A stretch of DNA of 64,000 bases from Capitulum mitella. Taxonomy: Eukaryota; Arthropoda; Thecostraca; Pollicipedomorpha; Pollicipedidae. Shown in pieces: positions 15,124 through 57,493 of the stretch. Position 1 is the stretch's first letter, and every line of letters begins with the position of its first letter. The position numbers and the translations under genes are program-made. The notes under the pieces are model-generated. The model was not told the DNA's origin. It ran no database searches and saw nothing but the letters and a program-made list of their open reading frames with translations. The stretch lies in the NCBI GenBank assembly GCA_030062745.1, contig CP099848.1:14793568-14857567 (forward strand), written 5' to 3'.

Positions 15124-15169
<46 letters not shown>

Positions 15170-19786: not shown

Positions 19787-21002
19787 TTACCCCTATTCCC
19801 GGCAGGGGGGGGGGCTGAATTCGCCCCTCCTCGGGTTTTTTGCTTGCCAATTCCAGGCTTTTTGACGCAGCTTCACGAAGCTTGGTCACTTTTCCTAGCT
19901 ATTCTTTCTACGTGCCGTGACAAAATTTCAAAATTCCGTTTTACACAGGGGCGGAGGTAGGCAACGTTTTTGGGAAGCACCTCAGGCCATTTTGCCATGT
20001 TGAGGTGAAAAGGAAAATGTCTGCCAAAAACAGTGTTTTTAAGATAGAATCTTAAGCTTTATATGGATGAATAGCTAAATAGTTGGGCTATGTTATAATT
20101 TTCCTCGTCTGAGGTCACATGACAAGGTCAGGTCAAGGTCAAAAGTCAAAATTTATTTTTTTGCAATAATTTTTGCGCTGTTTTTTCAAATGTCAAACCC
20201 GGAATATGTATGACGCAAAAAGGTTCCCTCTACTTGTGCATCAAGTTTCAGCTTGATATCAAGTCGGGTCACGGAACTATGACCTAAAATGTCAGTGCGC
20301 GTACCCTATATCGCAATAGCCATAAAAGGAAATTTTTGAAATAGCGTGAATTCAAATGATTGAAAAAGTTTACAGATAATATGAAATGCACACGAGATCA
20401 TTCCAAGTGACTCCAAGGTCACTGGAGGTCATTGAAGGTCACAGGTCACAAGTTGATCTGAAGAACGTGTGACCATGACAGTTCCCCATGTTTCATGTCC
20501 CTGGCACCGCCTATGCTAACGTTATACAAACATTGTAATGCGATTTGTACTTCTTTAGCATAACATGACTAGCAGAAGCCCAAAAAATGTTTTTTTCCTT
20601 TTTTGTTCATTCGTTTGTTAACAAACTAATCCTCCTATTTTTGAAACCCTGTGAACGCCTATGAATATTCCCAAAATTTCAGATGTGTGTGCCAATGGTA
20701 AAAGTCCTATCCATAATCTCTCGTTTCATGCCAGTTTCATCGAAATCGGTTCATAAACAACGGAGTTATAAGAAGTCCAAAAATACCCCCATTTTGACAT
20801 TTTTCCCCCTGTATCCGCCCCTTTCAAAATTTTGGAATTTCATTTTTATAAAAATGTAGCTCACGTCATGGCCAATCGATTGCCGTTTGTTGCGATGAAA
20901 TCGGATGTGTAGTTCTCGAGATCTCGGGGGGGGGGGGCTGAATCCGCCCCTCCCCCCGCTGGAAATCGACCATACCGTCTAGCTCTCCGGAAATAGGGTT
21001 AA
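19787..21002 (+). mobile_element. Family A TTAA-type element, full-length copy A2
   Basis: The left tip TTACCCCTATTCCCGGCAGG (TTAA mutated to TTAC) and right tip CCGGAAATAGGGTTAA form inverted ends of the type TTAACCCTATTCCCGG. Just inside each end is a G-run/C-run foldback (GGGGGG..GAATTCGCCCC on the left, GGGGGG..GAATCCGCCCC on the right). The internal sequence has no coding capacity and contains clustered AGGTCA half-sites around 20110-20145 and 20405-20455. The length is 1,216 bp. The TTAA boundary and CCC start are the hallmarks of piggyBac-type elements, so this is probably a non-autonomous derivative. Confidence 0.88.
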
Positions 21003-21034
21003 TGCTAAACACAACGCCCCATGTTTGATGGACA

Positions 21035-21145
21035 TTAACCCTATTCCCTTAGGACTAGACGGTATGGTCGATTCCCGGCAAGGGGGATGGATTCGGCCTC
21101 TCCCTGAGATCTCGAGAACTACACGTCCGATTTGAGCACAAATGA
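21035..21145 (-). mobile_element. Family A fragment A3 (one end only)
   Basis: It starts TTAACCCTATTCC and continues GACTAGACGGTATGGTCGAT..GATCTCGAGAACTAC.CGTCCGATTT, the reverse of the right end of A2. Only 32 bases separate it from A2, so the two right-hand tips face each other. Confidence 0.85.
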
Positions 21146-24100
21146 ACGCTGGAGAGTAAATGATGAAGTAAAACGGATATGGTGTTCGCCAGTCATTGAT
21201 CCACCTCAGGGCATCAATAATTCCATCTCAGGGACCCATTTAAAAACTGAAAAGGAGGGGGGTCAGAAACTGACATCATGCTTTGGCGGGGGGGGGGTCG
21301 CCGCCAAGTTAAGGGGTGCTAAATCGTATGGTTGGGGGACGGCGGCTGAAGCTCTAAAAAAGCCGTGTCTCCAGGATTTGGGGCGTCCCTGGGCCTTCGT
21401 GACCATTAAGTTGAGCTACCTTATTAATTTTCTTCTCATCCTCGGGACATTTTTAGGCCTCATGAGTCGCCATTAAAGGCCACGAGGGCATGAGTTGCGT
21501 CTTCGTCGCCATGTTGGCCACTAAGTGGTATTCCCGACAGGGGTGCCTACGGCGCTCAAAGGAGATGCCATGGCCTGATTACATCCCCATATGTACAGCC
21601 CTGGTCCATCTGTACCCCAGATGGTTATATTTGACCCATGGAGTCCAATCAAAGATGACCCATAGGTCGATCCGTGTTCAGAGGGGTCGTCGACTTAAAT
21701 GCGTTCTTGAAGATGCATAAGTATTTGGTAGGTAACAGTAGATGTGGAAGCCAAACATCGCATCTCAATCTACCAACGCTATTGTGGAATGACATCTAAA
21801 GGTCATCTCAGACATCTAAAGGTCATCTCAGGTCATCCAAGGTAGTGATACAAGGCACCATCTTAAACCAGTGGACTGGAATGACCAAGGATTATCTAAA
21901 AATCGTGACGTAAAAGTATTAAAGCGTTGTTTAGTCGATATCCACCACGAAATCTGATCGTAGGCATGTCGCAGTATCCTAAGCCCTCGCGGCCGTCGCT
22001 GCGGCATATACTGTATATTGCTGTGCACATTCAAGATCTTCAGTCGAACATAAACAAGTGAACGCCTTGGACATCTTAAAGTTACATGAGAATGTGCTGC
22101 ATGGGCGAGAATGAAAGAGTATGTAGCTTGTGTGCTTGTGTGTGTGTGTGTGTTTGATGTCACGATGCCGTGTCCGTCTTGTTCATTGATGTGAATATGC
22201 TAGATTTCTCATAGTGGCGGGAATCTTTAGGTGGGAACTTCATGTGAATCTTTAAACGCTTAGCACATGTAAATTTGAATTTTCTTCTTCTGGTTCTACC
22301 ATTTAACACCTCCATTAGTCTTGGCAGTGGCCTAGGTAGGACGTATCGTCGACCAATATTTTGCTATTTTGTATTTTTCAAACTCTGTCTCTTCCGAGCC
22401 AGGTAACATGAAACATGAACATACCAAGGGAGCATGAGGCCAGTAATATAGTAACTGTAAGAGAGATCGGAAGACTGTCCAAAAAACTTACCAACTGCCG
22501 ATCTGCTGTGACCCATAACGTACAATGCGTATATATATAGATGTAGATATATGTTGTTGAATTTGTGCATTCCAGCGGTCCTACAGTGAGGCAGACATGC
22601 GACAGTTGTCAGCCGGCCCTGTTGGCGCACGAAAACGACTGACATGATTCTCCTCATGACGTCATAGCCAGCGGTCTAAGAGCGCGACGAAAATTGGGGG
22701 GCGGATGGGGACCATTCGTCCGGGGGCGGCAAGCTCGAAGGGGGCGCCGATCTCCAACAGGGGCGCCATCTGTTTAGAATGAAACTGCTGGTGGACTTGT
22801 GTATTTAGGGCTTTAAAGGCACACATATCAGTGCACTTTTATATTAAGATACCTGTACGCGGGCATGCGCAGTGCTAAGGAACCAGGTCACGTGATATGT
22901 TTTCTTGTGCTCCTCTGACAATGTGACGTTCGATTTCAAACTTTTGACGTTATTTTTTCTACTAGTTCGTTTGTTGGTACTGGTTCGGAACAGCTCTCAC
23001 ACATGATTTTTCTCTGGAAAGCGTGCCTCCATGGCAGCACTTAGCTCCTCTCCCCCCCCCCGGATTCTTGTGGATAGGTGGTGTCAAATAAAAAAGCAGA
23101 TGGAACCGACAGTGACCATAATAGCTTTTCAGCCACATCCTCAAGACACTTGTCAGCCCAATGGATCGCGCACCCCCTAGTAAGATGCTTTCGATGAAGA
23201 CCTGTCGAAGCCAGCCTTCCGAAGTTCCGACGACGTTCGCTGACGCGGGCAGTAACAGCGCTTCCTCGGAAAGCGGGCCAAGGAAAGACAGGAATGAAGA
23301 AAAACACAGCCGCTAAATTCTAACTTGTTATTACTGAGGGGAGATGTCCATGGCTCCTCAGGTCAATCATGCTGGGAAACTTCCAGAAATGTTACATTCG
23401 AAATATGTTTTGAATAATGTGTCTGATATCAGCTTTCAAATTGGATAGGCAAAAGTGAACTGAAGCTAGGCTAGCCACCGTGAGGTTGCGCGCCTAGCCT
23501 CTTTTGTGTACGCTAGTCGCGCAAATCGATAGTTTTTTGTCTCCTGCATTAATCCAAGCCGATTGGAAAACTTTAACATGGTACATTCGTAAATGGCGAA
23601 GCTGTAACAAAGCTGCGATTCCAGGGATTCCTTTATTTTACTGCTTCCAAGCGCGGCAGAAAATTTCCGGAAATTATTGGAAAGGGGAGGTGGCGTAGGA
23701 CTTAACACTGTGCATTTTCAATGACTATCTTAGGTCTCGTGTTAAGCCCCCTGGCAGCTGGGGTCTAGATCCACCCGAACTACGCGAAATCTCTTGTAGT
23801 ACTGGCTAGGATGCCCCAGTTTTATGCTCAGATTTCATCTCGCCTCCTTGCCGCTCTCAAAATCAAAAACGTTAAACAGCAAAATTCGTGTTTTTTTAAA
23901 CACCCAGAAACTTAACTACAGCTACATTTTCACTTTCTTTTGCCCATACGAATGGTGACTTGAATTTTAGTGCGGTTCGTCCGCGTGGTGCCACGACGTC
24001 CAGAGGGAAGCCTGTATAACAGGAATGTCGCTCACTATAGTTAATTGCGAATGAAAAAATTATAGGTCGCCATTGCTTCAACCAGCCTAATTCAACGCCC

Positions 24101-24347: not shown

Positions 24348-25571
24348 TTAATCGCGCACGACCGTCGGTCCTTTACGATCATGCGCGACTGGGGTGTGCT
24401 GTTGACAGCCCCCCCCCCCCTTCTAACGCGCGAACGGTTGGTCGCACAACAAAATAAGCACATCGTTGGAAAGCTTGTGACGAGTAGAGCTCGAAACTAG
24501 CCTCATTTTTAGTTTTAGATAATATGTAAGCAATTTACGCCCTATATGTTTTCTCATACCCGACTGCATGAGACCGAGAAATGGCCTAAATCTCAAGGGC
24601 TGTGACTAATAACGCATAAATAAAGGCACCAGCGCACAAGTAAAGGTCCGCAAATGCCGATACACATCTTATTTCTCAGATCTGTTCAATACATACGCCG
24701 AAACGTCGAGTTAAAGACACGGCAATTCTCGCGTCGGCTGTCGATGTGCGCCGCAGCCGTATGCAGTAACAAATTGGCGGGAACTAATTTTTGCGTTCCT
24801 TTCTTTTCGCGAAAAAAGACGATCCATGTAAATTTTATTGATCTTACTGGTTCTTTTGGTGGTTTTGCATGCTTAAATTTTGGGAAAATTAATTAGTTAT
24901 CAATCTACACAATTGACGGAGCTTTATTCCAGAGAGCCTGTTTATTTCCAAAATATGCTACTTTTCCAAGCTTTTTTGAGGTTCCTGGTATTACTTCCGT
25001 CTGTGCAATCTAGTTCTGTCGTTTTCTACCCATTCTGAGTAATTCATCGCCGATTTTGACGGTGGTACATTTTGGCTCACTACAATTACTCGTGACCTGA
25101 CCTCAGGTCAATGGCTGGAAGTCATTGATACTTTGCCCAGTGACGGCAACTAGATGTCTGCTTCACTCCACACTAAAAATGTTATAAAATGTTCAGTCAA
25201 TTTCCGGGAAAACGACATGTCTTAAAAATGGGCTTGACCTCAGGTCAGTGACCCGGAAAATGCCGAAAAATCTGAGATAGCAGATTTGTTGCATCTGTCA
25301 GGATCACTAATCTCTGAAAAAATCATTAAGATATCTTGTTTTCCGAAAAAGTTGCAGGGCCCCAAACTTTTTTGGAGATAGGTTCGTTTGACCTGACTTA
25401 GGTCAGGCACCTGATCTAAGCTGAGGTCAAAATTTTGGCACAAGATGTAAAAATGATGAAGCAAAAGACACACAAAGTTTCGTGACTCTATGTCTGTTTG
25501 TTTTCTCGCAATCCCAGAAAAACCTCACGGGTGGGGCTGTCAACAGCCCCCCCCAGTCTGTGGCGGGTTAA
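24348..25571 (-). mobile_element. Family C TTAA-type element, full-length copy C1
   Basis: This is the reverse orientation of the 43082-44308 copy. The left boundary here is TTAATCGCGCACGACCGTCGG and the right boundary is GTGGCGGGTTAA. Just inside both ends is the hairpin type seen in C2 (a CAGTCAACTG or TTGACAGCC core between G- and C-runs). The interior carries TGACCTCAGGTCA-type half-site clusters (25090-25115, 25240-25250, 25385-25430). No coding capacity was seen. The right TTAA (25568-25571) is also the left boundary of element A4. Confidence 0.85.
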
Positions 25572-26774
25572 CCCTATTCCCGGAGGGCTAGCGGTATGGC
25601 CGATTTCCGGCAGGGGGGCGGATTCGGCCCTCCTGAGATCTCGAGAACTACTCTTCCGATTCCATCGCAACAAACTGAAATCGATTTTCCATGACCTAAA
25701 CTGTATTTTTATCAAAAGAGGTTTTCAAAATTTTGAAAGGGGTGGAAATTGGGGGGGGCGAAAAAGTTAGAATTGGGGATATTTTTGGGCTTCTTATAAC
25801 CCCGTTTTTTATCGACCGATTGTGATGAAATCCGCATGAATCGAGAGGTTATGAATGGGACTTTTACCATTGGTCCAAACATTTAAAATTTCGAGAAAAT
25901 TCATAGGCGTTCACAGGATTTCAAACATAGTAGGATTAGTTTTTCAACAACTGAATGAAGAGAAAAGGCAAAAGCACTTTTTGGCTTCTGCTAGTCATGT
26001 TGTGCTAAAGAAGTACAAATCGTATCCCAGTGTTTGTATAATGTTAGCATAAGCGGTGCCAGGGACATGAAAAAGGGGGAGCTGTCCTGGTTACATGTTC
26101 TTCAGATCATCTCTTAACCTTTGACTTCAAATGGCCTCCGACGACGTTGGAGTCACTTGGAATGATCGCGTGTGCATTTAATATTATCTGTGAACGTTTT
26201 CAGTGATCTGAATTCACTATTTCAAAAATTTCATTTTACGGCTATTGTGATACAGGGTACGCGCACTGACATTTCAGGTCATAGCTCGGTGAGTCGACCT
26301 GATATCAATCCGAAATTTGATACAGAAAAAGAGCGCACCATTCTACGTCATATATATTCCGGGTTTGGTATTTAAAAAAATAGCGCCGAAATTATTACTA
26401 TAAAACCAAATTTTGACTTGACCTTGACCTGACCTTGTAAAGTGACCTCAGATAAACAAAGTTGTATTTGCACCTTGCCCAACTATTTAGCTATATATCC
26501 GTATAAAATTTTAAGTTCTGTCTTAAAAACGCTTATTTTGACAGTCATTTTCCTTTTACTCTCAACAGGACCAAAAGTGGCTTGAGGTGCCTCCCAAAAA
26601 CGTTACCTGGCTCCGCCCCTGAGGAAAATAGAATTTATCAATTTTGTCACAGTACGTAGAGAGAATAGCTAGGAAAAGTGACCAAGTTTCGTGAAGCTGC
26701 GTTAAAAAGCCTGGAATTGCCAAGCAAAAATCACAGCGGGGCTGATTCAGCCCCCCTGGCGGGAATAGAGTTAA
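25568..26774 (-). mobile_element. Family A TTAA-type element, full-length copy A4
   Basis: TTAACCCTATTCCCGGAGG starts the element and GGCGGGAATAGAGTTAA ends it, giving 1,207 bp. It aligns over its whole length with A2 in the opposite orientation, including the AGGTCA-rich region (26395-26450) and the CTGGCTCCGCCCCTG block. It directly abuts C1, with one shared TTAA. Confidence 0.88.
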
Positions 26775-26990
26775 AGGGTGCTTCACCTGTACTGGGGACA
26801 GGGTGGAGGCAGCTGGCCTGCCTGAGGCGCCAGGTACATTAGGGGTTTGGAGTATTGACTGAACGCCTGGTCCATGACGCGTCGAGTCGGTGAGGCGCAC
26901 CTGATGGTGGAAATTTAGGGTTTAGGGCGTTCCGACCCCATGATCACAACGGCTTCCAGAGGGGCGCGTGATCTGTAAGGTGAGCGCCTT

Positions 26991-28338
26991 TTAACCCGCC
27001 TAGTGAAAAGGGGTTCTGCGCTAACGCGCACTGGAAAGAGGGGACACAAAAGTGCCCTCCCCCTCCGATCTCGGAAACGGAAAGAGCTAGAGACATGACA
27101 TTTTATGGGAAGGGTGGAGTCATAACGATTTATATTGTGTGCAATTTTAATGACCCAAGGTCAGTATTGTCAAGGTCAAATGGGGTCGAAAAGGTCAACT
27201 TTGGGCATTTTCTTGGTCCGTACAGGCCATTCCGTACGACTTTCCGAACGAAACCGGCAAAAGGTGTTTGTTTGAGTATTAAAACGTGGAATACGACATT
27301 TTCCATTCATTTGGCGTTTTCACTGAGGATTTCCGATCGAGTTCATGTCAGGTCTTTGACTTATGGTGTCTTTTTCCATCTTTGCAAATCAGATTTCGAG
27401 CAATATGGGATAGTTTGAGTGTAAATAAGGGCACTACACGCATCTTTTCGCCTTTTTACAGTGAAGATAGCCAACATCGGTGCATTTGATCACTTAAAGC
27501 GTTTATATTTATGTATGTATAAGTTTATATGTATATACATGAGTACCATTGTGCCGCGTATTTGTAGTGGGGTCTTTGAATGCATATTTCATACAAATCG
27601 ACATATTGCAAAGCAAATCTAGACCAGGTCAAGAAATAGTTACCCTTGACCTTTGATGACCTTTACCTGCACTGAGTCTAGAATATATGAGCGTATCCAT
27701 GTGCGTACACGTGTTTCTATTAGGGTTTTTGCATGCATATTTCATACAAATCGACATGTAAAGCAAATCTCGACCAGGTGACAAGATATTCGATTTTGAC
27801 CTTTGACGACCTTGGCCTTTGTTGACCCTGGCATACGTAAGAGTATCAGTGTGCGTTTTTATTACGTTTTAGTGAGCTTTAGTTTTACGTTTGGCGTTTT
27901 TATTACGCTCTTTGAACGCATATTTCGTACAAACCGACATGTTGCAAAGCAAATGTGGATCAGGTTACAAGCTGGTTGACCTTGACCTTTGATGACCTTG
28001 GCCCTTATTGACCCTGGCTGTGGTCTTGGTAGATCCACCACTTATGCCGGAATAACGTCGCCTATTGTGTTCAAACCGTAATCTTTGGTAGAACGGTAGT
28101 CCTTTCACAAAGCTCCCATTTGTCAGCGCCAACCGTTATTCTCGTTGTGATGGCTTGACTTCAAATGCTTGAAAGTTCAAAAACTTCTGGCCGGTTTTCG
28201 ATTTTTGTGCGTCAATCGACGAGTTATTTAATTGTCATAAGTGTCACAACGTAACAGCTACCAGCTTCGATCCGTCCTCGAGATTTTCAAGAAAAACAGG
28301 TGGGAGACACAAAAAGAACCCCCTTCGAGCGTGTGTGT
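26991..28338 (+). mobile_element. Family B TTAA-type element, copy B2
   Basis: It starts TTAACCCGCCTAGTGAAAAG, has the second tip motif GCTAACGCGCACTGGAAAG about 30 bp in, and ends near CGAGCGTGTGTGTGG, where the terminal TTAA has been lost. The three internal ~155-bp repeats, with TTTGAATGCATATTTC and TGACCTTTGATGACC, are preserved. It has no coding capacity. It begins only 217 bp after A4, so 24348-28338 is nearly continuous TTAA-type mobile DNA. Confidence 0.85.
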
Positions 28339-28860: not shown

Positions 28861-28917
<57 letters not shown>

Positions 28918-29590: not shown

Positions 29591-30109
29591 TTAGACGCAT
29601 GGGAGTCGAGTGTGGAGCTCTAGTCCCATGAGGAGAAAGGACAGCGAGAAGCCTGTGGCCTGTATCGGCGTTGCGCGATAGTTGAGAAGCGCTAGGAGTG
29701 GATCTTGCTGTTTCAGTATCCACTCGGCCGTCCGTCCTGCGCGTTCAGCTGCGCCAGATGGCATGTGCAAGCCAGACTGCCTGTGGGGCGAATCCATATG
29801 CTGCTGCGAATTCCCTGAACTCCTGTCCCGTGAACTGTTGACAGTGTTAGAGCTCAGCACATCCGGAGTGCCGTGACGACTGGAAGGAGCTGCTGCTAAC
29901 CAGAGCTCTTGTAGCTCGAGGGAGCCCCTGTATTTCAGGATGGCGGCTAAGGATATCAGCAGTGACCAAACATATGGGAAATATGTCATTTGCGACGTGC
30001 GATCACGGGTTGCCAGGCACCGCTGACAGCAAGAGCGGCTGTCTGTGCCGGGCTGGCATGTTTCTCTGGGGTGTTCAGTGAAGTTGCAATGTTCCACGTA
30101 CTCCTTCAT
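29591..30109 (-). pseudogene. Gypsy integrase core, fragment
   Basis: The peptide includes PDVLSSNTVNS, HRQSGLHMPSGAAERAGRTAE and DPLLALLNYRATPIQATGFS. These correspond to the middle and end of the integrase catalytic core: the 'P....SDNG..F' region, a 'HP.SNG.AER.V' region with the catalytic Glu (AER), and 'L..YR.TP'. The second catalytic Asp appears to be changed (SSNT in place of SDNG), in keeping with a dead copy. Confidence 0.78.
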
Positions 30110-30300
30110 TTTGGTGGATATGTTCGGCTATCAGACGCAGGTAAGCGCGCGCTCGCGTCACTTATTCAGGTCGAAGTGTCCATCTTCATGCAGCTTCCTG
30201 AGGATGCCCTCCTGCAGCTTCGTAGGAATAGCAGGCGCTGAGAGAGGACGAACGGCATCTGGCTTAGATTGGGCTACGTGGATTTCACGTTAAGTCAGTT

Positions 30301-33210: not shown

Positions 33211-35030
33211 TTAACCCTATGCCGTACCCATAACTCTAGGTAGCATTCCCGAATGTGGAGAGGGGAGGGGGCTTTTTCAACCTGAGATTTTGAGAACTAC
33301 CCGTCCAGTTTCACCTAGGAAACAACAGTCGATTTGAGATGACGTGAACTGTTTTTTTTATGGACAGAAGCTCTGAAAATCCAGTTTGCAAGGGTTGGAT
33401 ACAGAATGGCGAAAAGTCAGAAAGGGACACTTTTGGCTTGTTTTTATTTTGAACTGTGTAACTCAGATGTTTATGGACGGATTTGATACAGCTGACAAGA
33501 ATCTAGCATTAACTGATGAGACTTTTGGACCCACATAACTGATGAGACTATTGTCCCATACGCTGGAAACTTTGGGAAAGTCCACAGGACTTTGAAAATG
33601 TGAGAAATATTTTTTGCTGAATTAACATAAAGTTTCAAAATATATCAAACTTATTTATCACCTTTTGCTTAAAAGTTCAAAACGTATTACATTGCTTGCA
33701 TAATGTTGGCGCAGGTGGCGCCAAGGACACGGAAACGATGAATTCTAATGACAGCATGCCCATCAGCTCAGATTACGATTCCCATATCGCCTGAAAACGA
33801 TTCCAGCCATTTGGACTGACTACAGTTCTCAAATCCCCGTTTATTACCATCATGATTGGGTTAACGCGCGGACGTTTGAGGTCATAGTTCCGTCATCCGA
33901 CCTGATCTCAACCTAAACGTTAAACGCAACCGTAGGACACTGTGCTGAGTCACATGTGTTCCGGTTTTTTGCATGTACAAAATCAGCGTCAAAAAATTAA
34001 CATAAAACAAAACTTTGACTCGATCTTGACCTGCCCTTTTTAAGTTTCTTCGGTCGACAGAAATACTTTTACACTGTTGTCTAGTCTTACGCCTATGCGG
34101 TCGTATAATCTCGTGAGTTCTGTCGTAAAAGCTTGTAGCAGAGTTTTCTGCTTGGCGTGGTAGTTTGACTGTTGGCGACCTCGTTTGTGCCAAAATTTTG
34201 TCTTTTTCAGTACTTCTCTTTTCACAACTTCTTGCCAATTCTTCGTTTATTCGTCAGGCACACAGAGCTTCAACTTTCACCATCTATATTCTTGACGTCA
34301 AACACTGACCACTCACAGCACAAGCACTCCACAACGTCACGAGCGTCACGAGGTCCACCACATGTTTAGTCGATAGATACCTAGATCGATACATACTGAG
34401 CGAAAACCGGCACTGTTTATATGCTGCCTACGAAGGAAAATGATGAAAGGGGATGGTGCAATTATGATATCATATTCAACCACTTAGGAGGCGTTTTGCA
34501 GCCCGAATATTCTGGAAAGACTAGGCTTTAGCTAATGAACGAGCGAGAGGACTGGCTGATGTAAGGCGGATGGAAGAGCTCAGAAGTTTCCATGGGTGTA
34601 AGCTATTTTAAGATAAGAAAAAGGAAGTATCGTTTAACATTACGGATATAATTCACGTAGCGCCACTGCGGCACGATTGATGTACTAGAGGCGTTACTGC
34701 GTTCTCAGACGTCTTTGTCTGATTCTCTTCGGTGCCGACTGTGGGAACTGGAGTTAAAGGCATCTGGTAGCCTTAGACAGTGTTCCAAACCAAGGGCTCT
34801 TGAAGGGGACAGCGCCAGAAAATGGACTGAGGTGCATCTCAGAAAGTTGACTTAACAACTCCTCTTGGAAAAGAAAATGATGGAAATTTGACATAACTCA
34901 TAGGAAGGATAAAAAGGAAAGGTAAACAAATGTCGTGAACTCTCTTCAGAAACCCTGGAAATGGTGAGCAAAACACTTTAGGACAAGCCTTCTGAAACTT
35001 CCCCCATACTGGAGCGGGGTCCCGACAAGG
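33211..35030 (-). mobile_element. Family A TTAA-type element, old copy A5 with insertion
   Basis: It starts TTAACCCTATGCCGTACC and can be followed against A4: 'GAGAACTACCCGTCCAGTTTCA', 'GCATAATGTTGGCGCAGGTGGCGCCAAGGACA', 'GGTCATAGTTCCGTC..CCGACCTGAT', then the distal CTGAGGTGCATCTCAGAAAG and AACCCTGGAAATGG blocks at about 34820-34975. The span is longer than the ~1.2-kb full copies because about 34100-34800 does not align. The copy is much more diverged than A2 or A4. The right tip was not found. Confidence 0.65.
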
Positions 35031-36428: not shown

Positions 36429-37750
36429 TTAACCCGCGCAGTGGAAGCGAGTTTCGCACTAACGCGCACTGGAAGGGGGCACAAAAGTGTCCCTTCCGGT
36501 CTCCGAAACGGAAAGGGTTGGAGACATGAAATTTCATGCAAAGGTTGGGATGATCGCGATTTACATTGTGTCCAATTTTTATGACCCTAGGTCAACATCT
36601 TCAAGGTCAAATGGGGTCGAGAAGGTCAACTTTGGAAACCTTCTCGGCCTGTACAGGCCATTCCGTACGACTTTTCGAACGAAACGGGAAAAGGGTGTTT
36701 GTTTGGGCGTTAAAACGTGGAAACGGCAATTTCCATTTATTTGACATCTTCACTGAAAATTTCGGGCCGAGGTCATGTCAGGCCATTGACCTGTAGCGCC
36801 ATTTTTTCATCTTTTAGAGATCAGATTTCGAGCAACACAGGATAGCTTGAGTGTAAATCAGGGCCCTACGCGCATCTTTTCGCGTATTTCCAGTGAAGGT
36901 AGCCAACATCGGTGCATTTGGTCACTTCCAGCTGTTATATTTATATATGTATGTAAATGTATATATGTATATACATGTACCAATGTGTCAAACGTGTTTT
37001 TAGTGGGGTCTTTGAATGCATATTTCATACAAATCGACATACTGCACAGCAGATTTGGACCCGGTCACAGAATAGTTGCCCTTGACCTTTGACGACCTTA
37101 ACCTGAAATGACCGTGGGATATATAACCGTATTCATGTGCGAACACGTGTTTTATTTGGGTCTTTGAATGCACATTTCATACAAATCGACACCGCAAAGC
37201 AAAGCAAATCTGGGCCAGCTCACAAGATATTTGACCTTGACCTTTGATGGCCTTGACCTTGACTGGCCCTGATATATGTAAGCGTATCAGTGTGCGCACA
37301 CGTGTTTTTATTGCGGTCCTTGAATTCATGTTTCGTACAAACCGACATGTTGTAAAGCAATTCTGGATCAGGTCGCAAGCTGGTTGGCCTTGACCTTTGA
37401 TGACCTTGAACCGTATTGACCCTGGATTTGGTCTTGGTACATCCGTCACCTATGCCCGAATGACGTCATGTCATTGTGTTCAAACGGTAATCTTAGTTAG
37501 AACGCTGGTCCTTTCACAAAGTTCCCATTTGTCAGCGACAGCCACCGTTTTCGTGATGTTTGTCTGACTTCAAATGCTTGAAACTTCAGAAATTTCCAGC
37601 TGATTTTTAATTTTTCAGCGTCAATCGACGAGTTATTCAATTGCCATAAATGTCACAAAGTAGTAGCAACCAGCTCCGATCGGTTCTCGAGATATTAAAA
37701 AAAAAACAGGGGGGGGGCGCAAAAAGACCCCCGTCCAGTGCGCGTGTTAA
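36429..37750 (+). mobile_element. Family B TTAA-type element, best-preserved copy B3
   Basis: The left tip TTAACCCGCGCAGTGGAAG and right tip CCAGTGCGCGTGTTAA are inverted repeats, each ending in an intact TTAA. The size is 1,322 bp. The second tip motif CTAACGCGCACTGGAAG starts about 30 bp in, followed by a GGGCACAAAAGTGTCCC hairpin. Three ~155-bp direct repeats at about 36980-37440 each carry TGACCTTGACCTTTGATG-type half-site clusters. No transposase is encoded. It is inserted in hAT-like sequence, so it is younger than that element. Confidence 0.9.
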
Positions 37751-40082: not shown

Positions 40083-42290
40083 TTAAGCAACACAAAACCT
40101 CGACAGTAGAACGGTAGCACCAGAGGTACAGCAGCTCCAGTCAAATAAAACTCTTCCCAACACCGTCAACCTTTTCATTAGATGACTTTCCACAAACTCA
40201 CGCAGGATGACCTTGGGATCCAGCCTTCTTGCGCGATCGATGTGCATGACGAGGACGACCAGGTTTGATAGCCTCCCCTGACTCATCGTGGATCGCAGCG
40301 GCGTCTTGATCCGGTACGAGGCGCTGAACGAACCTTTCGCCGATGCACCGCTCATGGGAACGGCAATGATCAGAGGTGCTGCCAGGCGCAGCACCTCCGA
40401 TGGGATCTCTTGGCACAAGCGGCCCTGGCTCATGATGAAGTTCACAACCTGGTTGATCGAGTTAGCTTTGTTTGCGGCACCTTGGCACATCGGCGCATGG
40501 AGGCCAGCTGCATGGTCATAGCGTCAGGGTCAATGTTTCCTGAGCTATCCTGGTTGACGTTGGTTTGCGATGACGCAAGAACTTTCGTGACATTGTCAGG
40601 GCTGACATCCGCTTGTCTGTCTAGCGGTAAGTCCTGTAACTGTTCCAGACGTTCCAGATCAGGCTGCTTGAGCCGCCGCCTCACTTTATTTGTTACCAGG
40701 TCCATCGCTTTGAAGAAGCAGCGTCTCAGCAGGTCTTTGGCGGTGAAGACCGTTGGCACTGCTGCATTTTCATGATGCTCCAGTCGCTTAGGCAGGCGGA
40801 CTGGACGTGGGTCCTTTGGTGGGTCGATGGGGCTGCCAAGCGTCGATATCTTGTCGTGGCATTCTTCCCACAGCTTTTCAAAACCGCGAACTCGCGCAGA
40901 TTTTCCAGCCTGCTGAGCAGCATCGTAGCCCCCCTTACGGACATCTCAGCAGTTGATCCCAGGGCGCTGCAGTGCCTTCGCAAAAAGCTCACATGGGCCA
41001 AACATCCACTCGCACATCATCAGAGATAGCACGGTCTCAAAGCTCTGGAGATAAGAGAGATAACCTCGCACTCTGTGACGGACATCCGGTGACGATATCC
41101 GTCACTGTCTCCTTCCACATCGTTCAGTGTCAGAATTGTGTCATATTCCTCAAGAAATCGTGTGGTCGCCAGGCATCTCACTGTCCACCTGGTGGGACAG
41201 AGGGATATGAGCTTGTGCGGCGTGGCACGGTGCAGTCCCGCGTCGTCTTCGTCGTGTTGCGGGCGCAGTTCGAGAACATGTTCCTCAAACAGCTGCTTCC
41301 TTTTCGTGGTCTTGAGTCTGGAGTACTCTCACCACATCCCTAACGATGTTCAGAGCATCAGCAACCTGGGACACCTCTTTGGCGTCTTCCACGAGGGCCA
41401 GGTCCAATGAATGATTTGTGCTCGGTTGCAGTGCACGAATATTGAGCGGGGCTGCTCTTCGATCAGTCTGGCCTGCACTCCGGACACATTTCCCGACATG
41501 TTCCATGGTCCATCAAAGCAATGGCCTCTTAGCTTGTCCATTCCGCACATGGTGCGCCGCAGGGCGACCTTTAAGGCTTCGTACAGAACTGCAGCCGTCG
41601 AGCCAGGCACCTCACACAGGCCAAGGCAGGCTTCTTCTACGATCAACTTTTCTGTCACATATCTGACACATACGCTGAACTGGTCTTTGGTTGCCAGATC
41701 TGTCGTCCCATCTGCGATCACCCCATGGAACATACTGCGTCGAGCTTCGTCCGAAATTTCGCGAAGAACCATCGAGGTCATGATTCTGATCAGCTCGTCT
41801 TGGCATTCATGAGACAAGAAATTGCTCCTTTTCTGTAGCCATCTGCGGTATTTCATCTGCGGTCTTGTCATGCTTCTTTCGTCTAGCATGGTCATGAAAT
41901 TCACACCATCTTGGCCACGTAGGGCTGATCCAGATCGCGCCAAGCCTCGGAGGACGCTGACGATTTCCGAGAACACTTCTCTTTTCTTGCGCTGTTCCAT
42001 TTCCGTGGCCAGGGCGAGAACCTTGTCAACGGGCGGCGCTGATGACAGATGACATTTCTCTGTGTCTTCCTGGGGATACGCAGACTTGGAGTGTGGCTTG
42101 AATTTTTCGGAAACTTCTTTCAGTTGCCAAAGCCTCGGATGAACGCGGTCTCTTTGAAGTCCGAAAGCTTTACCAGCTTCTGCTTCAGCGCTCGGCAGCA
42201 TGTGTGGCATGTCACATGATCATCTTCAACGTCGTAACTCAAGAATGGGTATTCTTTGTACCATTGACAGCAAAACCTTCGGCCGCTGGT
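40083..42290 (-). pseudogene. hAT-family transposase with TTF-type zinc finger, decayed
   Basis: On the minus strand the order is that of ZMYM1/ZNF862-like hAT transposases. A TTF-type finger (WYKEYPFLSYDVEDDHVTCH then TCC, about 42195-42271) and AFIRGFGNWK come first. After a frameshift near 42125 there is a 286-codon frame (41350-42210) with a DUF4371-like region: HGVIADGTTDLATKDQFSVC (catalytic-type Asp in DGTTD), CLGLCEVPGSTAAVLYEAL and GHCFDGPWNMSGNVSGVQAR. A further frame change near 41400 leads to LDLALVEDAKEVSQVADALN. The C-terminal dimerisation region (about 40180-40440) contains GASAKGSFSASYRIKTPLRS and MSQGRLSNL. Several frame changes make this a pseudogene. No matching terminal repeats were found around it. 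Confidence 0.88.
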
Positions 42291-43081: not shown

Positions 43082-44308
43082 TTAACCCGTCCCCGACTGG
43101 GGAGGGGGCAGTTGACTGCCCCCCTGAGGTTTTTCTGGGATTGCGAGAGAACCAACAAACACAGAGTCACGAAACTTTGTGCACCTTTTGCTCCATCAAT
43201 TTTACGTCTCGTGTCAAAATTTTAACCTCAGGTCAGGTCAGGTGCCTGACCTAGACCAGGTCAAACAGACCTAAGTCCAAAAAAGTTTAGCGTCCTCTAA
43301 CTTTTTCGCAAAACAAGATATCTCAATAATACTTTCAGGGATTAGTGATCGTGATAGATGCAACAAATCTGCTATCTCGGATTTTTCGGAATTTTCCGGG
43401 TCATTGACCTAAGGTCAAGCCCATTTTTAAGACATATCGCCGTTTTTTCTGAAATTGACGGAATATTTCATCAAATTTTTAGTGTGGAGTGAAGCAGACA
43501 GCTAGTTGCCGTCATTGGGCAAAGTATCAGTGACTTCCAGCCATTGACCTGAGGTCAGGTCACGAATAACTGAAGTGGGCCAAAATGTACCACCGTCAAA
43601 ATCGACGATGAATTACTCAGAATGGGTAGAAAATGGCACAACTAGCTAGCACAGACGTAAGTAATACCAGGAACCTCAAAAAGTTTGAAAAAGTAGCATA
43701 TTTTGGAAATAAACAGGCCCTCGCGAATAAAGCTCCGCCAACTTTGTAGATTGGCAACTAATCAATTTTTCCAAAATTTAAGCATGAGAAACCACCACAA
43801 GAACCACAAAGATCAATAAAATTGGCATAGATCGTCTTTTTTCCCGAAAATAAAGGAACGCTAAAATTAGTTCCCGTCAATTTTATACCGCATACGGCAG
43901 CGGCGCACAGTGACGCCTGACGGGAGAATTACGGTGTCTTTAACTCAACGTTTCGGCGTATATATTGAACAAATCTGAGGAAATTAGACGTGTATCGGCA
44001 TCCGCGGACATTTACTTGTGCGCTGGTGCCTTTACCTATGCGTTATTAGTTACAGCCCTTGAGATTCAGGCCATTTCTCGGTCTCATGCAGTCGGCTATG
44101 AGAAAACATATATAGGGCGTAAATTGGCTTACATATTATCTAAAACTAAAAATGAGACCAGTTTCGAGCTCTACTCGTGACGGGCTTTCCAACGGTATGC
44201 TTATTTTTATCGTGCGACTAACCGTTCGTGAGTTAGAGGGGGGGCAGTCAACTGCCCCCCCCCCAGTCGCCGGTGTTCGGGACGGACCGACGGTCGTGCG
44301 CGGGTTAA
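43082..44308 (+). mobile_element. Family C TTAA-type element, full-length copy C2
   Basis: TTAACCCGTCCCCGACTGGGG starts the element and CGGTCGTGCGCGGGTTAA ends it, giving 1,227 bp. Immediately inside both ends is the same foldback: a G-run, a CAGT(TG/CA)ACTG core and a C-run (about 43103-43125 and 44239-44269). The interior has the tight cluster AGGTCAGGTCAGGTGCCTGA then CCTAGACCAGGTC at 43230-43265, and TGACCTGAGGTCAGGTCA at 43545-43565. No coding frame was recognised. Confidence 0.9.
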
Positions 44309-48526: not shown

Positions 48527-51500
48527 GTAAGTCTCCGCTAGCCGTGGACAAAGTACAGCCCCCTCCCCACCCCAGTCACCGTCGGCAGGCACACATCACG
48601 ACTGTCGCGACCAGCACGTGGAACTGCATGCTTGGAGAGGTGGTAATAGGCGTAACAATGGGAGTAGCAAGCAGCAGTAGCCGCGGGTGTCGATTTCTGT
48701 CAATGATTTGGGGAAGGGGGGGGGGATGGCGAGCCAAGGGCCCGACAGCCTAACCTCCTCCAAATGTGGGTTTCTGAACGGATTTAGCCCACTTTATTTT
48801 GACCAGCGGAAATTTATAGGTTTTTGTTAATAGCCATCAAGTACGAAAAATGCATTATCTCCATGTATACGGGTATATATATGGGTAGACGATGAAGATA
48901 CATAAATACATCGCTTTAGACTTTATTCTTTACTTTCTGCCTATCTGTTATCTACTGCGGCCGTGCTTGTCGTTATAATTACTCATTTCGCTTTAAAACC
49001 GGAAAAAATATTGTGTGGCCCTAACCAATATGAGGGGGAGGGGGGAAGTGTGTGTAAATCAACATTGGGTGGGCCAGGGCCTTCTCAGAAATTGCAAATC
49101 AACATCCCTGGCAGGGGCAGTAGCAGTAGCAGTAGTAATGGCAGTAATAGCAGCAGCAGCAGCAGCAGCAATAAAGTCTCAGCATTAGCTGCATTTAGAG
49201 AGGTAGCAGTGTAGCAGAAGCGATAGGAGTAGCAGTAGGAAAAGCAAAGCTGTAGGAGTATGAGTAGTGGTAGCAGTGACACAAAGAGTACGACTAAGAG
49301 TAAAAATAGCAGGACAGGCAGCGCAAGGGGCAGGAACAGAAGTAAAAACATAATTCGCATTAGAAGAACGAGCAGTAGCACCAGCAATAGCAAAAAGAAA
49401 AACCGCAGTGCTGCCTGACTGTTCCTTGTATCGCCATATCCCTGACCTTTCTCAGTTGTGAATTGTCAATTTATCGCCAATTCCCCTGGCATCGTCAGGG
49501 ACGTAAATTTGCATGCCTTTTGTATAGAGCCTTCCATACTAGAGGAAATCATTGGTGTGAAATTTGATACCAGTATCTGGACCCGTTCATATGTTTTCGT
49601 GCTTTACAAAATGAACTACTGTAAATACGTTATCATTGTGCATTTTTTGGTTCGATGAATTCATTTTCCCATACCAGAATCTGGCCCAATTTTACACCAG
49701 TGCAGCCAGTTCTTAAATATAATATAACAATATGACACCATGTCAAACGGACCAAAGTAATGATCTGATTCTTCTCAGCATGTGACATGTGTCACATGCC
49801 ATAGCACCGTCATTGTCATTATAGTGGCATCCCGCTCGTTGAGTTCGTAGGCCAGGCTGGGTCTCCCTGTCACTTGCAGTAGGGAACTTGCTGCAATATC
49901 AAGTCTGTTTCCCGTTACCTGTTTTGTTCATGTCGCCAGGTTCCAAATCGATCTGCTGTATGGACATGGCCACCACTCGGGACACGCCATAGCCCTGCAC
50001 ATCAACCCGCGCTTTAAGGAAAATCACGTGGTCTTGAACTCGCGGCGCGCTGACAAAACGTGGGATCGCGAGGAATTAGGCAACGACATGCCTTTTCGGC
50101 GTGGCACCGACTTCGAGATCGTCGTTATCTGCAAACCCACCATGTATACGGTACGTAGTTTAGTTTTTCCGGGGCACTGCTTTCCGATCGGCCACGGGGA
50201 ATCTAGTTGGTGCTAGCAACTTCATGGGCGAGTGGTTCTAATAACAAGAACTTCAAAATGTTCATACCACATCATCCATAAAGTGTCCATGGCTTGTTGC
50301 AACAAGGGCTGAGAATCCGCCTTTCTGTCTTTCTTTATTTTTTGTTTCGCCCACCGTTCTTAAACGATTTGCTCCGGCGCGTGGATGCTGGATGACTTGA
50401 TATATTTTATTTTTGTCCACATCATGCCATAATTTCACAACTTTTGTTTTAGCCAAAGGCTAGGAAAAGTTGCTGGATGTATACCGGTTATACGACAGTC
50501 ATATGGGTCTTTGCTGGTATTCACGATAATGCAGGGCTTTTTCTCTAACGCCTATTTCGTATCTTCCTTTGTTGGACATTTAACCCGCCACCGACTGGGG
50601 GGGGGGGCTATTGACAGCCTCCCAGTCAGCCCCCCCCCCAGTTTAGCGCCCTGTAAACAAGATTATTAGTCATAGCCCTTGAGATTCAGGCCATTTCTCG
50701 GTCTCGTGCAGTCGGCTATGAGAAAACATATATAGGACGTAAATTGCGTACATATTATCTAAAACTAAAAATGAGACCAGTTTCGAGCTCTATTCGTCAC
50801 AAGCTTTCCAACGGTGTGCTTATTTTTGTTGTGCGACCAACCGTTCGCGCGTTAGAGGGGGGCGGCCAACAGCCCCCCGCCAGTCGCGCATGATCGTAAC
50901 GGACCGGCGGTCCTGCGCGGGTTAATCGTTTAGCAATAGGGAGGAAACAGACTGTCCTAAATCATACCCACAATCGACTGAAAGAACAATTGGTCTGTCA
51001 TTGTTTTTGAAACCGAAAGTACAGTAGGGGATACAGCTGGCCATCGATTTACCCGATATGCAAATCGTTTTTTTTTTGGCTCATGTCGTGCGATAGAAAC
51101 CATTTTCGCGGGTAGTGTTTTGTTTGTACGACCGGTCAGCGTTGGTAAGTGCGAACAAATGAAATGCTGGCTGGCTGGCATCCCCACGACGCGGTTGCGG
51201 ATTTATTATGTGCAAGGAGCTCTGATGGAATTGGCTAATCAGTTGATGAGATCAGCTTGCAGCGCATCCTTTTCCTTTGCTCGCCGCCGGCTGGACGTGG
51301 TCGGGCTAGCGAGCTAGCCCTGTGCATCTCTGGAGGGGTTCTAACGACCTTCTCCTCCCTAGATTGACGTGGACGGAAAACACTTGCACGAATTCCGCCA
51401 CCGGTTGAAGCCGGAAGCTACCCACATCGTCTTCAGACGCCATGTTATTATCAAGCAGATAACGTTCCACGATGCCTCACACCTGGTTCCCGACCCGGAC

Positions 51501-52592: not shown

Positions 52593-52635
52593 CTGGCGTT
52601 ATTGTTGCGCGTGACGTGCGCAATAATAACGCCAG
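52593..52635. repeat. 18-bp inverted repeat (one mismatch)
   Basis: CTGGCGTTATTGTTGCGC at 52593-52610 pairs with 52618-52635, with one mismatch and a 7-base loop GTGACGT. Confidence 0.9.
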
Positions 52636-53772: not shown

Positions 53773-54764
53773 TCAGCTGACACCGCGCGGAACGTGACAT
53801 GGGATTTCGGGCAATAGGAAACCAGCGCCGTTGAATAGCAGGCCATTCTACCGGAGTCTACCGCGAGTACCTGGAGAAAACGTTATTTGATGGTCTGAGG
53901 CTGTCGCTAGATGGCAGGTTTGCATCATTCTACGCGCGATGTTTGGATCTCCCGCCCAGCTGCGGGCGTTTTCAACTAACCTTGACAGCGCGTGGGGTCC
54001 GATGCCACCATGGGTGGAGAATGAGGTGGTGCGGGTGTAGCATCATCCACACCAACTTTTAACAGTGTCTTCAAAACTGGGTTTGACATGAAACCATGTA
54101 CACCCCAAATTCCTCTTTTTCGCAAAATTATGAAGCGCAAAGTTAAAAATAAATCACAGCAGAAACATACAGGTAATGGAACGTAATCAAAGAGCACGTA
54201 CTCCAGTCCAGTGGGTGTGCATTGTGTACCGTTTAGTTCGTTGCACTCTTCATTGCTGGTTTACGTAGTTTTGCGTAACTGTAGAAGAACGAAACTTTTT
54301 CTGAGTTATGTCCATCAGAATGGAACATGAAGTGGTTGGAATCCGGTGGGAAAATAATGGAGAAGGGTGGGGGACCGAGTATTTGGAACTGACTGGATTG
54401 ACCTTTACCACACCAGCTTTCAACACAGTTCCCTACCCATAGATGTGAGAGTAAATAAACCCAGAGAACTGTGCAGAGCAGTTGCGTCGCCGCAGTGTCG
54501 TAGTGCCTGGTTCCCGGTTTTGCCAACCATCCGTGGTTCACGAAAGGGGACAGCGTTGTCACCCGGACATAGTTAGGCGGGCATGGCGTAGCTGTAGCCA
54601 TTGCCTGGTAGTTCCTTCTGATGCCTTAAAAGCGCAGTCAGTACAGCGGAGCCACAACAGCGGGGGCACCAGTTGCCGGGACAAACACATGTATATATGT
54701 ACATGCACACACACGCACACCCACACGTACGCACGCACGCACGCACTACTTCGGAAACAGATTG
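53773..54764. other. Unassigned sequence
   Basis: No gene was recognised. A CA/CG-rich microsatellite (ACACAC..ACGCACGCACGCACG) lies at about 54703-54745. Confidence 0.45.
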
Positions 54765-55610
54765 TTTAACATACTTTGTTGGTTAAATGCTATCATGGTG
54801 TTGTTTTTAATTTGTTTTCTCGATATACTTTCAATGCTTCTTATACGAAGCTTGTTGTCGATTGTAAGTGACGACAGGATGGAGCCAAACTCAGCATAAG
54901 TTAGATGGTATAAGTTATCAAAACATTGCGCATATTACATCTCAACATTTCGTGAATGCGTATGATATCAAGGAACAGAGTAATAGTGCATACAGCGCAC
55001 ACTGGGAATACATAAATGCTAAGAGTAACAGGGTGGCACTTCAAGTTATGCCAAACACGGTTATAACGAAAAACTGCACTGGACATCAAAGTTCGGTCGG
55101 ATCGACAACACTTGCCAGGGCTAGAATGTCTAACGAACAGAACAACAGAAGTTTTGCTGAAGGACGAAAAATATCACATGCGAGATGTCAGGGTGATTAT
55201 TATTAGTAGGGATAATACATTGACATATATTGAACAGTGGGGTTGCAAGTTACCTCGGACCTAGGGGAAATCCATCGAAAAGATGTAGTGTCCCCTCGCG
55301 TTCACGTGAGTATTGATGGTTGGGACTCGATCCTGGATGAGCATGGCCTCGAGAATTAGATTAAAATAATGTATAACCAGTGTGCGCTGTATACACCATT
55401 ACTCAGTTCCCTGAAGATGACATACGCACTGGCGAAACGTTGAGATGCAATATGCGCAATGTTTTGATAATTCATAACGTCATACTTATGCCGAGTTTTG
55501 GCTCCATCGTGTCATCACATACAACCGACAACGAGCCCTTATTAGAAGCATTGAATGTATATCAAGAGAACTAATTAATAGCAAAGCCGCAATAGAATTA
55601 GCCAACATTG

Positions 55611-55612
<2 letters not shown>
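54765..55612. mobile_element. Foldback element with ~240-bp inverted arms
   Basis: The left arm (about 54765-55025) and right arm (about 55376-55612) are inverted copies of each other, roughly 80-85% alike by eye over the inner 150 bp and lower outside. Shared blocks include CCAGTGTGCGCTGTAT, AATATGCGCAATGTTTTGAT and GTTTTGGCTCCATC. About 350 bp separates the arms. The two arms give matching open frames (each reading LRCNMRNVLI), which is a consequence of the repeat. It could be a long-TIR non-autonomous transposon or a segment capable of giving a long hairpin RNA. Confidence 0.82.
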
Positions 55613-55670
<58 letters not shown>

Positions 55671-55684
55671 TGTGTGTGTGTGTG
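55613..55684. repeat. (TA)n(TG)n compound microsatellite
   Basis: A TA run of about 55 bases passes into a TG run. It begins exactly at the outer edge of the right foldback arm. Confidence 0.95.
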
Positions 55685-55831
55685 TACATATGTATGTGTT
55701 TATATATTTGGAAGTAGGTTTAATATCCCAGTAACAATGTAACAAGAACCCAAGTGGCATTATGCCCTTGTGTCAGCTTTTTTTCAATTGAAAAAATTTC
55801 TAAACTTTTCCCAGCAGTCTTATGGCGTCGC

Positions 55832-56714
55832 TTAACTCGTCCACGACGGGGGAGACAGTTGAAACTTTGTGTACCTTTTGCTTCATCAATTTCACATGTG
55901 TCAAAATTTTGACCTCAGGTCAGGTCAGTTGCCCGACCTAGGTCAGGTCAAACAGATCTATGCCCAAAAAATTAGCGCCCTGTGACTTTTTCGAAAAACA
56001 AGATATCTCAATAATGCTTTCAGGGATTAGTGATCGTAACAGATGCAACAAATCTGCTGTCTCAGATTTTTCGGAATTTTCCGGGTCGTTGACCTAAGGT
56101 CAAGCCCATTTTTAAGACATGTCGTTTTTTCGGAAATTGGCGGAATATTTCATAGCATTTTTAGTGTGGAGTGAAGCAGACATCTATTTACCGTCACTGA
56201 GCAAAGTATCAATGACTTGCAGCCTTTGACCTGAGGTGAGGTCGCGAATAGCTGTAGTGAGCCAAAATATACTACCGTCAAAATCGGCGATGAATTACTC
56301 AGAATGGGTGGAAAAGGGCAGAGCTAGCTTGCACAGACGTAAGTAACACCAGGGATCTCAAAAAGTTTGAAAAATAACATATTTTGGAAATAAACAGGCT
56401 CTCGCGAATAAATCGCCGCCAATTGTATAGATTGGTAACTACTGATTTTTTCCCAAATTTAAGCATGGAAAACCATCACAAGAACCACAAAGATCAATAA
56501 AATTTACATAGATCGTCTTTTTTCGCGAAAATAAAGGAACGCTAGAATTAGTTTCCGTCAATTTGTTACTGCATACGGCTGCGGCGCACGCCTACAGCTG
56601 CCGCCAGAATTGCCGTGTCTTTAACTCAACGTTTCGGCGTCTGTATTGAACAAATCTGGGAAATTAGACGTGTATCGACATCCGCGGAACTTTACTTGTG
56701 CGCTGGTGCCTTAA
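55832..56714 (+). mobile_element. Family C element, 3'-truncated copy C4
   Basis: It starts TTAACTCGTCCACGACGGGG and follows C2 closely through the AGGTCAGGTCA cluster (55916-55950) to CTGGTGCC. There it stops at TTAA (56711-56714), which is also the start of A6. The right end is missing. Confidence 0.83.
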
Positions 56715-56925
56715 CTCTATTTCCGGCAGGGGGGGGCTGAATTCGCCCCCCTCGGGGTTTTTGCTTGCCAATTCCAGGCTTTTTGACGCAGCTTCACCAA
56801 ACTAGGTCACTTTTCCTACCTATTCTTTCTTCGTGCTGTGACAAAGTTTCGAAATTCTATTTTGCCCAGGGGCGGAGCCAGGCAACGTTTTTGGTAGGCA
56901 CCTCAGGCCATTTTGGCCATTTTAA
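56711..56925 (+). mobile_element. Family A fragment A6 (left end only)
   Basis: TTAACTCTATTTCCGGCAGG and then about 200 bp of the left end as in A2. It stops where A7 begins at TTAA 56922-56925. Confidence 0.83.
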
Positions 56926-57493
56926 CCCTATTCCCGGGCAGGGAGGGGGCTGAATCCCCCCTCGGGTTTTTTACTTGCCAATTCCAGGATTTTTAACGCA
57001 GCTTCACGAAACTTCATCACTTTTCCTAAGTATTCTTTCTACGTGCCGTGACAAAATTTCAGAATTCTATTTTTCTCGGGGGCGGAGCCAAGTAACGTTT
57101 TTGGGAGGCACCTCGTGCCATTTTTGGTCATGTTGAGGGTAAAAGGAAAATGGCTGCCAAAAACAGAATTTTAAAGATAGAACTTAAACCTTTACATGGA
57201 TGTATAGCTTAATAGTTGTGCAATGTGCAGATGTACTTTTGTTTATCTGAGGTCATTTTACAAGGTCAGGTGAAGGTCAAAAGTCAAAATTTGTTTTTTT
57301 TTGCAATAATTTCGGCGCCGTTTCAAAATTTTGAAAATTTATTTTTATAAAAATGTAGTTCAAGTCATGGCAAAGCGATTTCCGTTTGTTGCGATGAAAT
57401 CGGATGTGTAGTTCTCGAAATCTCAGGGGGGCCGAATCCGCCCCCCCGGCCGGGAATCGACCATACCGTCTAGCCCTCCGGGAATAGGGTTAA
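56922..57493 (+). mobile_element. Family A internal-deletion derivative A7
   Basis: TTAACCCTATTCCCGGGCAG and CCGGGAATAGGGTTAA are perfect-looking family A ends enclosing 572 bp. The middle found in A2 is missing after TTTGCAATAATTTCGGCGCC. The remaining half-site cluster ACAAGGTCAGGTGAAGGTCA is present. Confidence 0.88.

Follow-up and report, generated by a model that had tools for sequence, protein, structure and literature searches.

The window analysed here, 64,000 nucleotides of the Capitulum mitella genome (contig C10, 14793568-14857567; the genome comprises 477,042,490 bp in 16 contigs), holds copies of three families of TTAA-bounded noncoding elements, called A, B, and C. Very probably, these are non-autonomous families of the piggyBac superfamily whose two ends are asymmetric in the manner of piggyBac (IFP2) of Trichoplusia ni (T. 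ni), B being a deleted form of a coding element of the type found at locus L074, and A and C relying on related T. ni-type transposases. The copies, in window positions, are the following (LE and RE, left and right end).

10676..11515 (-): A1, an old, diverged A-like copy, 67-72% identical over the aligned parts, the copy end being placed by alignment only; tip TTAACGCTATTCC at 10676 and a displaced ATTACCG at copy position 36
19787..21002 (+): A2, full A copy, left end mutated to TTACCCC, right TTAACCC intact; 90.7% identical to the A consensus
21035..21141 (-): right-end fragment of A
25568..26774 (-): A3, full A copy, its first TTAA (25568-25571) common to C1; 86.6% identical to the consensus
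33211..34976 (-): older A-like element with a TTAACCC end, ATGCCG at 9 and ATTCCCG at 35; A-like pieces at 33281-33506, 33791-34045, and 34814-34976; far end undefined
56711..56923 (+): left-end fragment of A, in tandem with the next copy
56922..57493 (+): A copy with both ends, internally deleted
14463..15982 (+): B1, full-length B copy, right end decayed
26991..28338 (+): B2, full-length B copy, right end decayed
36429..37750 (+): B3, full B copy, TTAA at both ends
36475..36494 (+): long-spacer (RE-type) palindrome of B3, GGGGG-CACAAAAGTG-TCCC, position mapped by eye
24348..25571 (-): C1, full-length C copy, adjoining A3 at the common TTAA
43082..44308 (+): C2, full C copy with both ends
43104..43123 (+): short-spacer (LE-type) palindrome of C2, GGGGG-CAGTTGACTG-CCCCC, position mapped by eye
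44240..44259 (-): long-spacer (RE-type) end of C2, where the palindrome recurs 27 bp deeper than at the LE; position mapped by eye
50580..50925 (+): C copy with both ends, internally deleted
55832..56720 (+): C copy broken at the TTAA at 56711, where the A fragment starts

The families were compared by self-alignment of the window, and their end patterns were counted against shuffled sequence. Each family has a pair of full-length copies matching each other: 19786-21002 with 25568-26775 for A, 26991-28338 with 36429-37747 for B, and 24353-25571 with 43082-44302 for C. The A-end pattern occurs nine times with at most three mismatches (shuffle mean 0.34) and the C-end pattern four times (shuffle mean 0.02), while TTAACCCGCGCA alone is weak evidence, with ten matches at up to two mismatches for 4.55 expected by chance, and ten reached in one of 100 shuffles. 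An earlier note on this DNA had claimed three TTAA-bounded noncoding families, and these are real, as judged from the self-match pairs, the excess of the A and C patterns over shuffles, and the abundance of the families genome-wide. Several of its details need revision. The elements cover 12,585 bp of the window, of which 10,304 bp lie within 19787-57493, and not about 14 kb, these figures including older A-like pieces and a 77-bp B match (55607-55683) inside an AT repeat. The two "starts" given for C are two different ends of one family, and A1 starts with TTAACGC at 10676, position 10710 being a displaced internal repeat. The TTAACCC start supposed to be common to all three is the consensus of five of the six ends, the short end of B reading TTAACAC; a CC[C/T] tip is a criterion of the piggyBac superfamily. 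Clean TTAA ends are not present in every copy, the left end of A2 reading TTACCCC and the far ends of B1 and B2 being decayed. A4, A6, C3, and C4 are fragments or internally deleted copies. Tandem repeats of about 150-155 bp lie inside the B copies (15245-15657 in B1, with a 153-bp unit; 27570-27856 in B2; 36992-37424 in B3). At 56711-57134, two A left ends stand in tandem about 210 bp apart, beside the C copy broken at the same TTAA.

All three families are abundant in the genome. The exact A end occurs 6640+6585 times, the exact long end of B 206+199 times, and that of C 1530+1564 times, with 0/0 occurrences of the reversed-pattern controls in each case. First-look candidate loci number 8048 for A, 5925 for C, and 3904 for B (with L074 as query), or 17,877 in sum, of which 40 per family were scored; on these candidates the families may constitute a notable share of the genome. 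Scored A copies are 96-97% identical over their whole length to the A copy L022 (contig C1), and C2 is 92-97% identical, also over the whole length, to 40 further full-length genome copies. The A consensus (1216 bp) was made from 20 copies of contig C1, picked for an exact match at both ends, and two window copies; the identity of these 22 copies to the consensus ranges over 85.1-96.4%, and the longest open frame in the consensus has 76 amino acids. Transposase pieces compared with A, B2, B3, C1, and C2 gave just two matches, both in C1, with E values of 0.46 and 0.88. A, B, and C are non-autonomous and lack a transposase gene.

None of the families has mirror-image ends, an asymmetry that the earlier note had not reported. 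At one end a G-rich palindromic repeat lies near the tip, and at the other it lies 27-28 bp further in (28 in A and B, 27 in C), following the second of the two copies of the tip motif that this long end carries. Thus, the block ATTCCCGGCAGGGGG of A starts at position 9 in one end and at 37 in the other, GCGCACTGG of B3 at 8 and 36, and CGACTGGGG of C2 at 13 and 40. In 18-bp comparisons of one end with the other, the highest score is 17/18 for both the A consensus and B3, at an offset of 28, and 18/18 for C2, at 27. Genome BLAST independently gives the same values, positions 6-42 of A matching 1145-1181 inverted (offset 28) and positions 13-43 of C matching 1158-1188 inverted (offset 27). Copy by copy, with 15-bp windows judged against the highest score from 60 shuffles, 28 is the best offset in 24 of the 27 A copies (two others have 27 and one has 31) and in two of eight B copies (B3 and L074); three of four C copies have 27 and the other 26. 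The displaced block continues into the palindrome, whose centre, counting the TTAA, is at 30.0 (LE) and 58.0 (RE) for the A consensus, 31.5 and 59.5 for that of C, and 56.5 for the RE of B; the C consensus palindromes thus give an offset of 28 and single C copies 27, G-run lengths being variable. Without the TTAA, the LE centres fall at 26 in A, 27.5 in C, and about 25 in B, the latter read by eye only; in the T. ni type the centre is expected at ~25 bp from the LE tip. The asymmetry of the ends is the strongest evidence for the piggyBac type of these elements. Together with the CCC tips and a piggyBac transposase relic between B ends (see following), it bears out the earlier proposal of non-autonomous piggyBac-type elements.

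Insertion of A at TTAA is directly visible. TTAA bounds all 20 A loci chosen for an exact match at both ends, with varied outer flanks (one of these loci, L023, had first been cut 16 bp short); for B and C, TTAA bounds are seen at copy ends only. One A copy is inserted in a B copy (loci L007, L008, and L011 overlap and represent this one place). Its flanks, joined with one TTAA, align ungapped at the site to the three window B copies, which read CTAA, CTAA, and CAAA there, only this 4-bp site lying between the flanks. This filled and empty site and the 20 TTAA-bounded loci agree with the TTAA targeting that had been proposed. Overall, 8 of 61 joined-flank queries gave junction-spanning matches: three are the single A-in-B site, one is an A copy in a minisatellite (L027, ~72%), and three are insertions at TTAA of PB1 (into a C and a B copy) and of PB2 (into an A copy), PB1 and PB2 being two piggyBac families of this genome. 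The eighth, from L068, which had matched itself, was left uncounted. Copies also adjoin at a single common TTAA, as C1 and A3 do in the window, two A copies at C14:3890562-3890565, and two C copies at C11:12689593-12689596. At L062 (~1804), PB2 stands beside A, and the common site now reads CTAA.

As the earlier note had it, the window encodes no piggyBac transposase: tblastn with nine transposase pieces gave no match at E 0.01, and none of the 118 genome matches listed for the PF13843 profile falls there. That profile search listed at least 118 matches (116 of 267 candidates scored), and 44 distinct piggyBac loci were picked from them and read, most with limited flanks. Most of the 44 belong to PB1 (ends TTAACCCATTAACGCCCA) or PB2 (ends TTAACCC[A/T]TTAGTGCCCA). 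The PB1 copies L029, L030, L032, and L035 and the PB2 copies L039, L040, L042, and L045 have open transposase frames and TTAACCC at both ends. Because PB1 and PB2 also carry TTAACCC in front of different inner ends, this start is not diagnostic of a single transposase. The open frames and intact ends of these copies, and the presence of PB1 in a C and a B copy and of PB2 in an A copy at TTAA, could suggest that PB1 or PB2 transposases move A, B, and C in trans, by way of the common TTAACCC. We regard this as improbable: the ends differ after TTAACCC, a displaced end repeat exceeds the largest of 60 shuffles in none of 15 copies (seven of PB1 and eight of PB2), and landing inside an element is no evidence of moving that element. 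The transposases themselves also point elsewhere. Against solved structures, piggyBat is the best match for PB1 (L030) and PB2 (L039), as it is for PB3 (L047) and L077, and T. ni piggyBac is the best match for L074, L075, and L079. PB1 and PB2 were likewise rejected as direct parents of A, B, and C, as their ends differ.

The locus L074 provides a coding relic between B ends. Its span of 3893 bp (1044-4936) has the B short end at one TTAA and the B long end at the other, with B-like DNA at element positions 1-504 and 3131-3893 and a 153-bp tandem repeat similar to that of B. Two PF13843 pieces lie between these ends (9.4e-22, and 2.9e-4, which is below the family cut-off), the whole match in the genome search having a value of 5.4e-41 and two stops. 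The main piece matches T. ni piggyBac at 2.3e-16 versus 0.35 for piggyBat, and the gene runs from the short end (LE) to the long end (RE), as in T. ni. An 18-bp comparison of its two ends gives at best 12/18, at an offset of 28 and equally at 32. The simplest reading, and a likely one, takes L074 for a decayed coding member from which B derives by deletion. If the relic were instead a foreign insertion into a B copy, it would say nothing of B, and one would then understand why its interior is single-copy in the genome and why no match of the other scored B copies (40 scored) falls in it. Such a nested origin is unlikely, and we give the foreign insertion a small probability. The insert contains just two TTAA (element positions 1851 and 2856), neither at its border, and the next ones outward are within B-like DNA; no independent genome copy of the insert was found; and the gene polarity and the 28-bp end offset fit a complete T. 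ni-type element. Taking L074 as the decayed coding member, the array of ~153 bp that it shares in similar form with the B copies may be older than the loss of the gene, since the coding relic has it too.

Other transposase loci were considered as parents and set aside. L075, a T. ni-like transposase, was rejected as the parent of C: its TTAACCCGCGCCCGA motifs at 5039 and 5587 resemble C at first sight, but they lie within an 80-bp duplication that reaches beyond the TTAA, and no other genome copy of L075 continues past 4113. At 1056-2561 this locus contains an unrelated repeat with inverted ends of ~150 bp, a 143-bp minisatellite array, and many genome matches; the host of this insertion is a small family of T. 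ni-like transposase copies with a repeated unit that stops at ~4113 without a TTAA. L079 was rejected, the ends of A, B, or C not being seen there. The transposase of L067, between two A copies, was not accepted as part of a composite element, because both flanking A copies are complete, and the C copy beside a PB1 piece at L073 reads as a truncated C and not as a coding one.

The earlier note had also suggested that all three families were moved by one piggyBac-type transposase. The three do share TTAACCC, the same asymmetric plan, and G-run palindromes, and a C and an A copy adjoin at a common TTAA in the window. In comparisons between families over the 20 bp after TTAA (CCC included; 12 comparisons with 500 shuffles each), A_LE and C_LE are identical at 14/20 positions (reached by 1/500 shuffles), B_LE and C_LE at 12/20 (3/500), and B_LE and C_RE at 11/20 (4/500). 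The A_LE/B_LE comparison is borderline (24/500), and the other eight of the 12 were reached by at least 50/500 shuffles. Inner motifs and palindrome cores differ between families, and B has a coding relic of its own. A single transposase is hence unsupported and, in our view, unlikely. The data are explained at least equally well by separate but related T. ni-type transposases, of which each family may have had its own, since only three of the 12 end comparisons are rarely reached by shuffles. A still more distant alternative is that another TTAA-targeting superfamily, Kolobok or Sola3, moved the elements. Kolobok shares the TTAA site duplication, but the sections of PMC6004289 covered give its termini as RR/AG versus the CCC or CAC tips found here, on which membership in Kolobok was rejected. 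As the B-ended relic is PF13843, the chances of any such superfamily are very slim.

The preferred reading remains three non-autonomous piggyBac families with T. ni-type ends. In the short end (LE), TTAA is followed by a short tip motif and then by the G-rich palindromic internal repeat. The long end (RE) carries the tip motif twice, once next to TTAA and once beyond a spacer, and the palindrome, which follows the second copy, lies 27-28 bp deeper inside the element. If the T. ni structure is a guide, the tip motif would be bound by the transposase core and the palindrome by a dimer of C-terminal cysteine-rich domains (CRDs); the extra RE site would recruit a second transposase dimer, and the LE-RE pair would then be cut and joined into a new TTAA. 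B would be the deleted form of the coding element represented by the decayed L074, and A and C presumably depend, or depended, on related T. ni-type transposases. Directly observed are the ends, the TTAA site, the asymmetry, the copy number, the lack of coding capacity, and the relic between B ends; protein binding, the choice of transposase for A and C, and any activity at present are matters of inference.

Some observations weigh against this interpretation. The 44 piggyBac loci read, most with limited flanks, include none that would be a coding parent of A or C; a transposase gene between matching ends was seen for B, in the single decayed copy L074. The interior of L074 has no other DNA match in the genome, which leaves its link to B unconfirmed by a second coding copy. 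The T. ni-like transposases L075 and L079 are without A, B, or C ends, the TTAACCCGCGCCCGA motifs of L075 falling outside its repeated unit. The offset itself varies. The other six of the eight B copies have best offsets of -23, -27, -29, -31, -32, and +42 (L046 ties at -27/-28/-29), which I take to reflect decay; the A copy L076 (11/15) and the C copy L077 (10/15) are within shuffles, and A2 and A5 of the window (12/15) merely equal the largest shuffle. Genome copies of C have an offset of 27, and reading by eye gave 27 for the old A-like copy at 10676 and 26 for that at 33211. At the B short end, the best palindrome found by script is a different one, the G-run/C-run at ~29 having been read by eye.

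Three amplified families with differing motifs and a nearly equal offset suggest that the spacing, and not the sequence, is conserved. One may go further and propose that all of the T. ni-type piggyBac clade obeys a fixed ruler, the 27-28 bp offset, which the piggyBat-like clade of this genome lacks and which at least three families with diverged motifs have kept; end architecture and transposase clade would then evolve as a unit. We give this proposal even chances. A, B, and C are well suited to asking if T. ni-type piggyBacs invariably have asymmetric ends, and with thousands of candidate copies per family, the tolerated spacing and motifs could be read from the genome.

The window contains remains of other transposons. 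At 3659-4294 (+) there is a transposase relic with the Pfam domain DDE_3 (1.3e-13), which we take to be probably of Tc1/mariner type, and at 41350-42219 (-) an open frame with DUF4371 (1.8e-9), presumably a hAT-type relic. A frame at 29591-30127 (-) resembles a retroelement integrase tail by reading, with no Pfam match at 1e-3.

Among the titles and abstract starts surveyed on TTAACCC and piggyBac there is no description of A, B, or C, which is not proof of undescribed status; the families may be undescribed, and the kind of element is known. Closest among the published families covered are the CMITEs of Acropora corals, likewise several TTAA/CCC noncoding families in one genome, linked to piggyBac-like transposons and one of them having a coding relative (PMC2872659, in the parts covered). 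They differ in being ~100 bp long with a common interior and differing ends, whereas A, B, and C are 1.2-1.5 kb long with a common end plan and differing interiors; asymmetric ends are not described in those parts of PMC2872659. The Xenopus families T2-MITE and Xstir are TTAA miniature inverted-repeat transposable elements (MITEs), one of which has an amplified internal repeat, comparable to the tandem repeat of B, but their ends are of the Kolobok RR type (PMC6004289, in part). Within the piggyBac superfamily, piggyBat of Myotis shares the TTAA, as do PB1 and PB2. It lacks the piggyBac subterminal pattern according to the portion of PMC11707139 covered, and PB1 and PB2 ends have no displaced repeat, in which all three differ from A, B, and C. 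Depending on the element, a piggyBac-like transposon can carry inverted repeats in a subterminal or an inner position, as human MER75, MER85, and Looper do (PMC12324416, a preprint, in the parts covered). The general layout is thus known outside T. ni, although those parts do not state a 27-28 bp register and the comparison is one of description.

The end plan matches the one published for T. ni piggyBac itself, which has 13-bp ends and 19-bp internal repeats with a spacer of 3 bp at the 5′ end versus 31 bp at the 3′ end (PMC2532691, in part), hence a difference of 28. According to the sections of PMC7351741 covered, bp 34-63 of its RE are nearly identical to bp 7-35 of its LE, the RE having a duplicated segment and a 17-bp insertion; the internal repeat (LE bp 17-33) is palindromic-like and bound by a CRD dimer; the native transposase requires the asymmetric pair in cells; and the unequal ends are termed puzzling and enigmatic. 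A, B, and C differ from T. ni piggyBac in being gene-less, in their G-run palindromes, in the 153-bp tandem repeat of B, and in the sequences of motif and palindrome (the T. ni DNA itself was not aligned). They have in common with it the TTAA target, the CCC tip, and a palindromic repeat displaced by ~28 bp between the ends, to which L074 adds the LE-to-RE gene polarity and a T. ni-like transposase.

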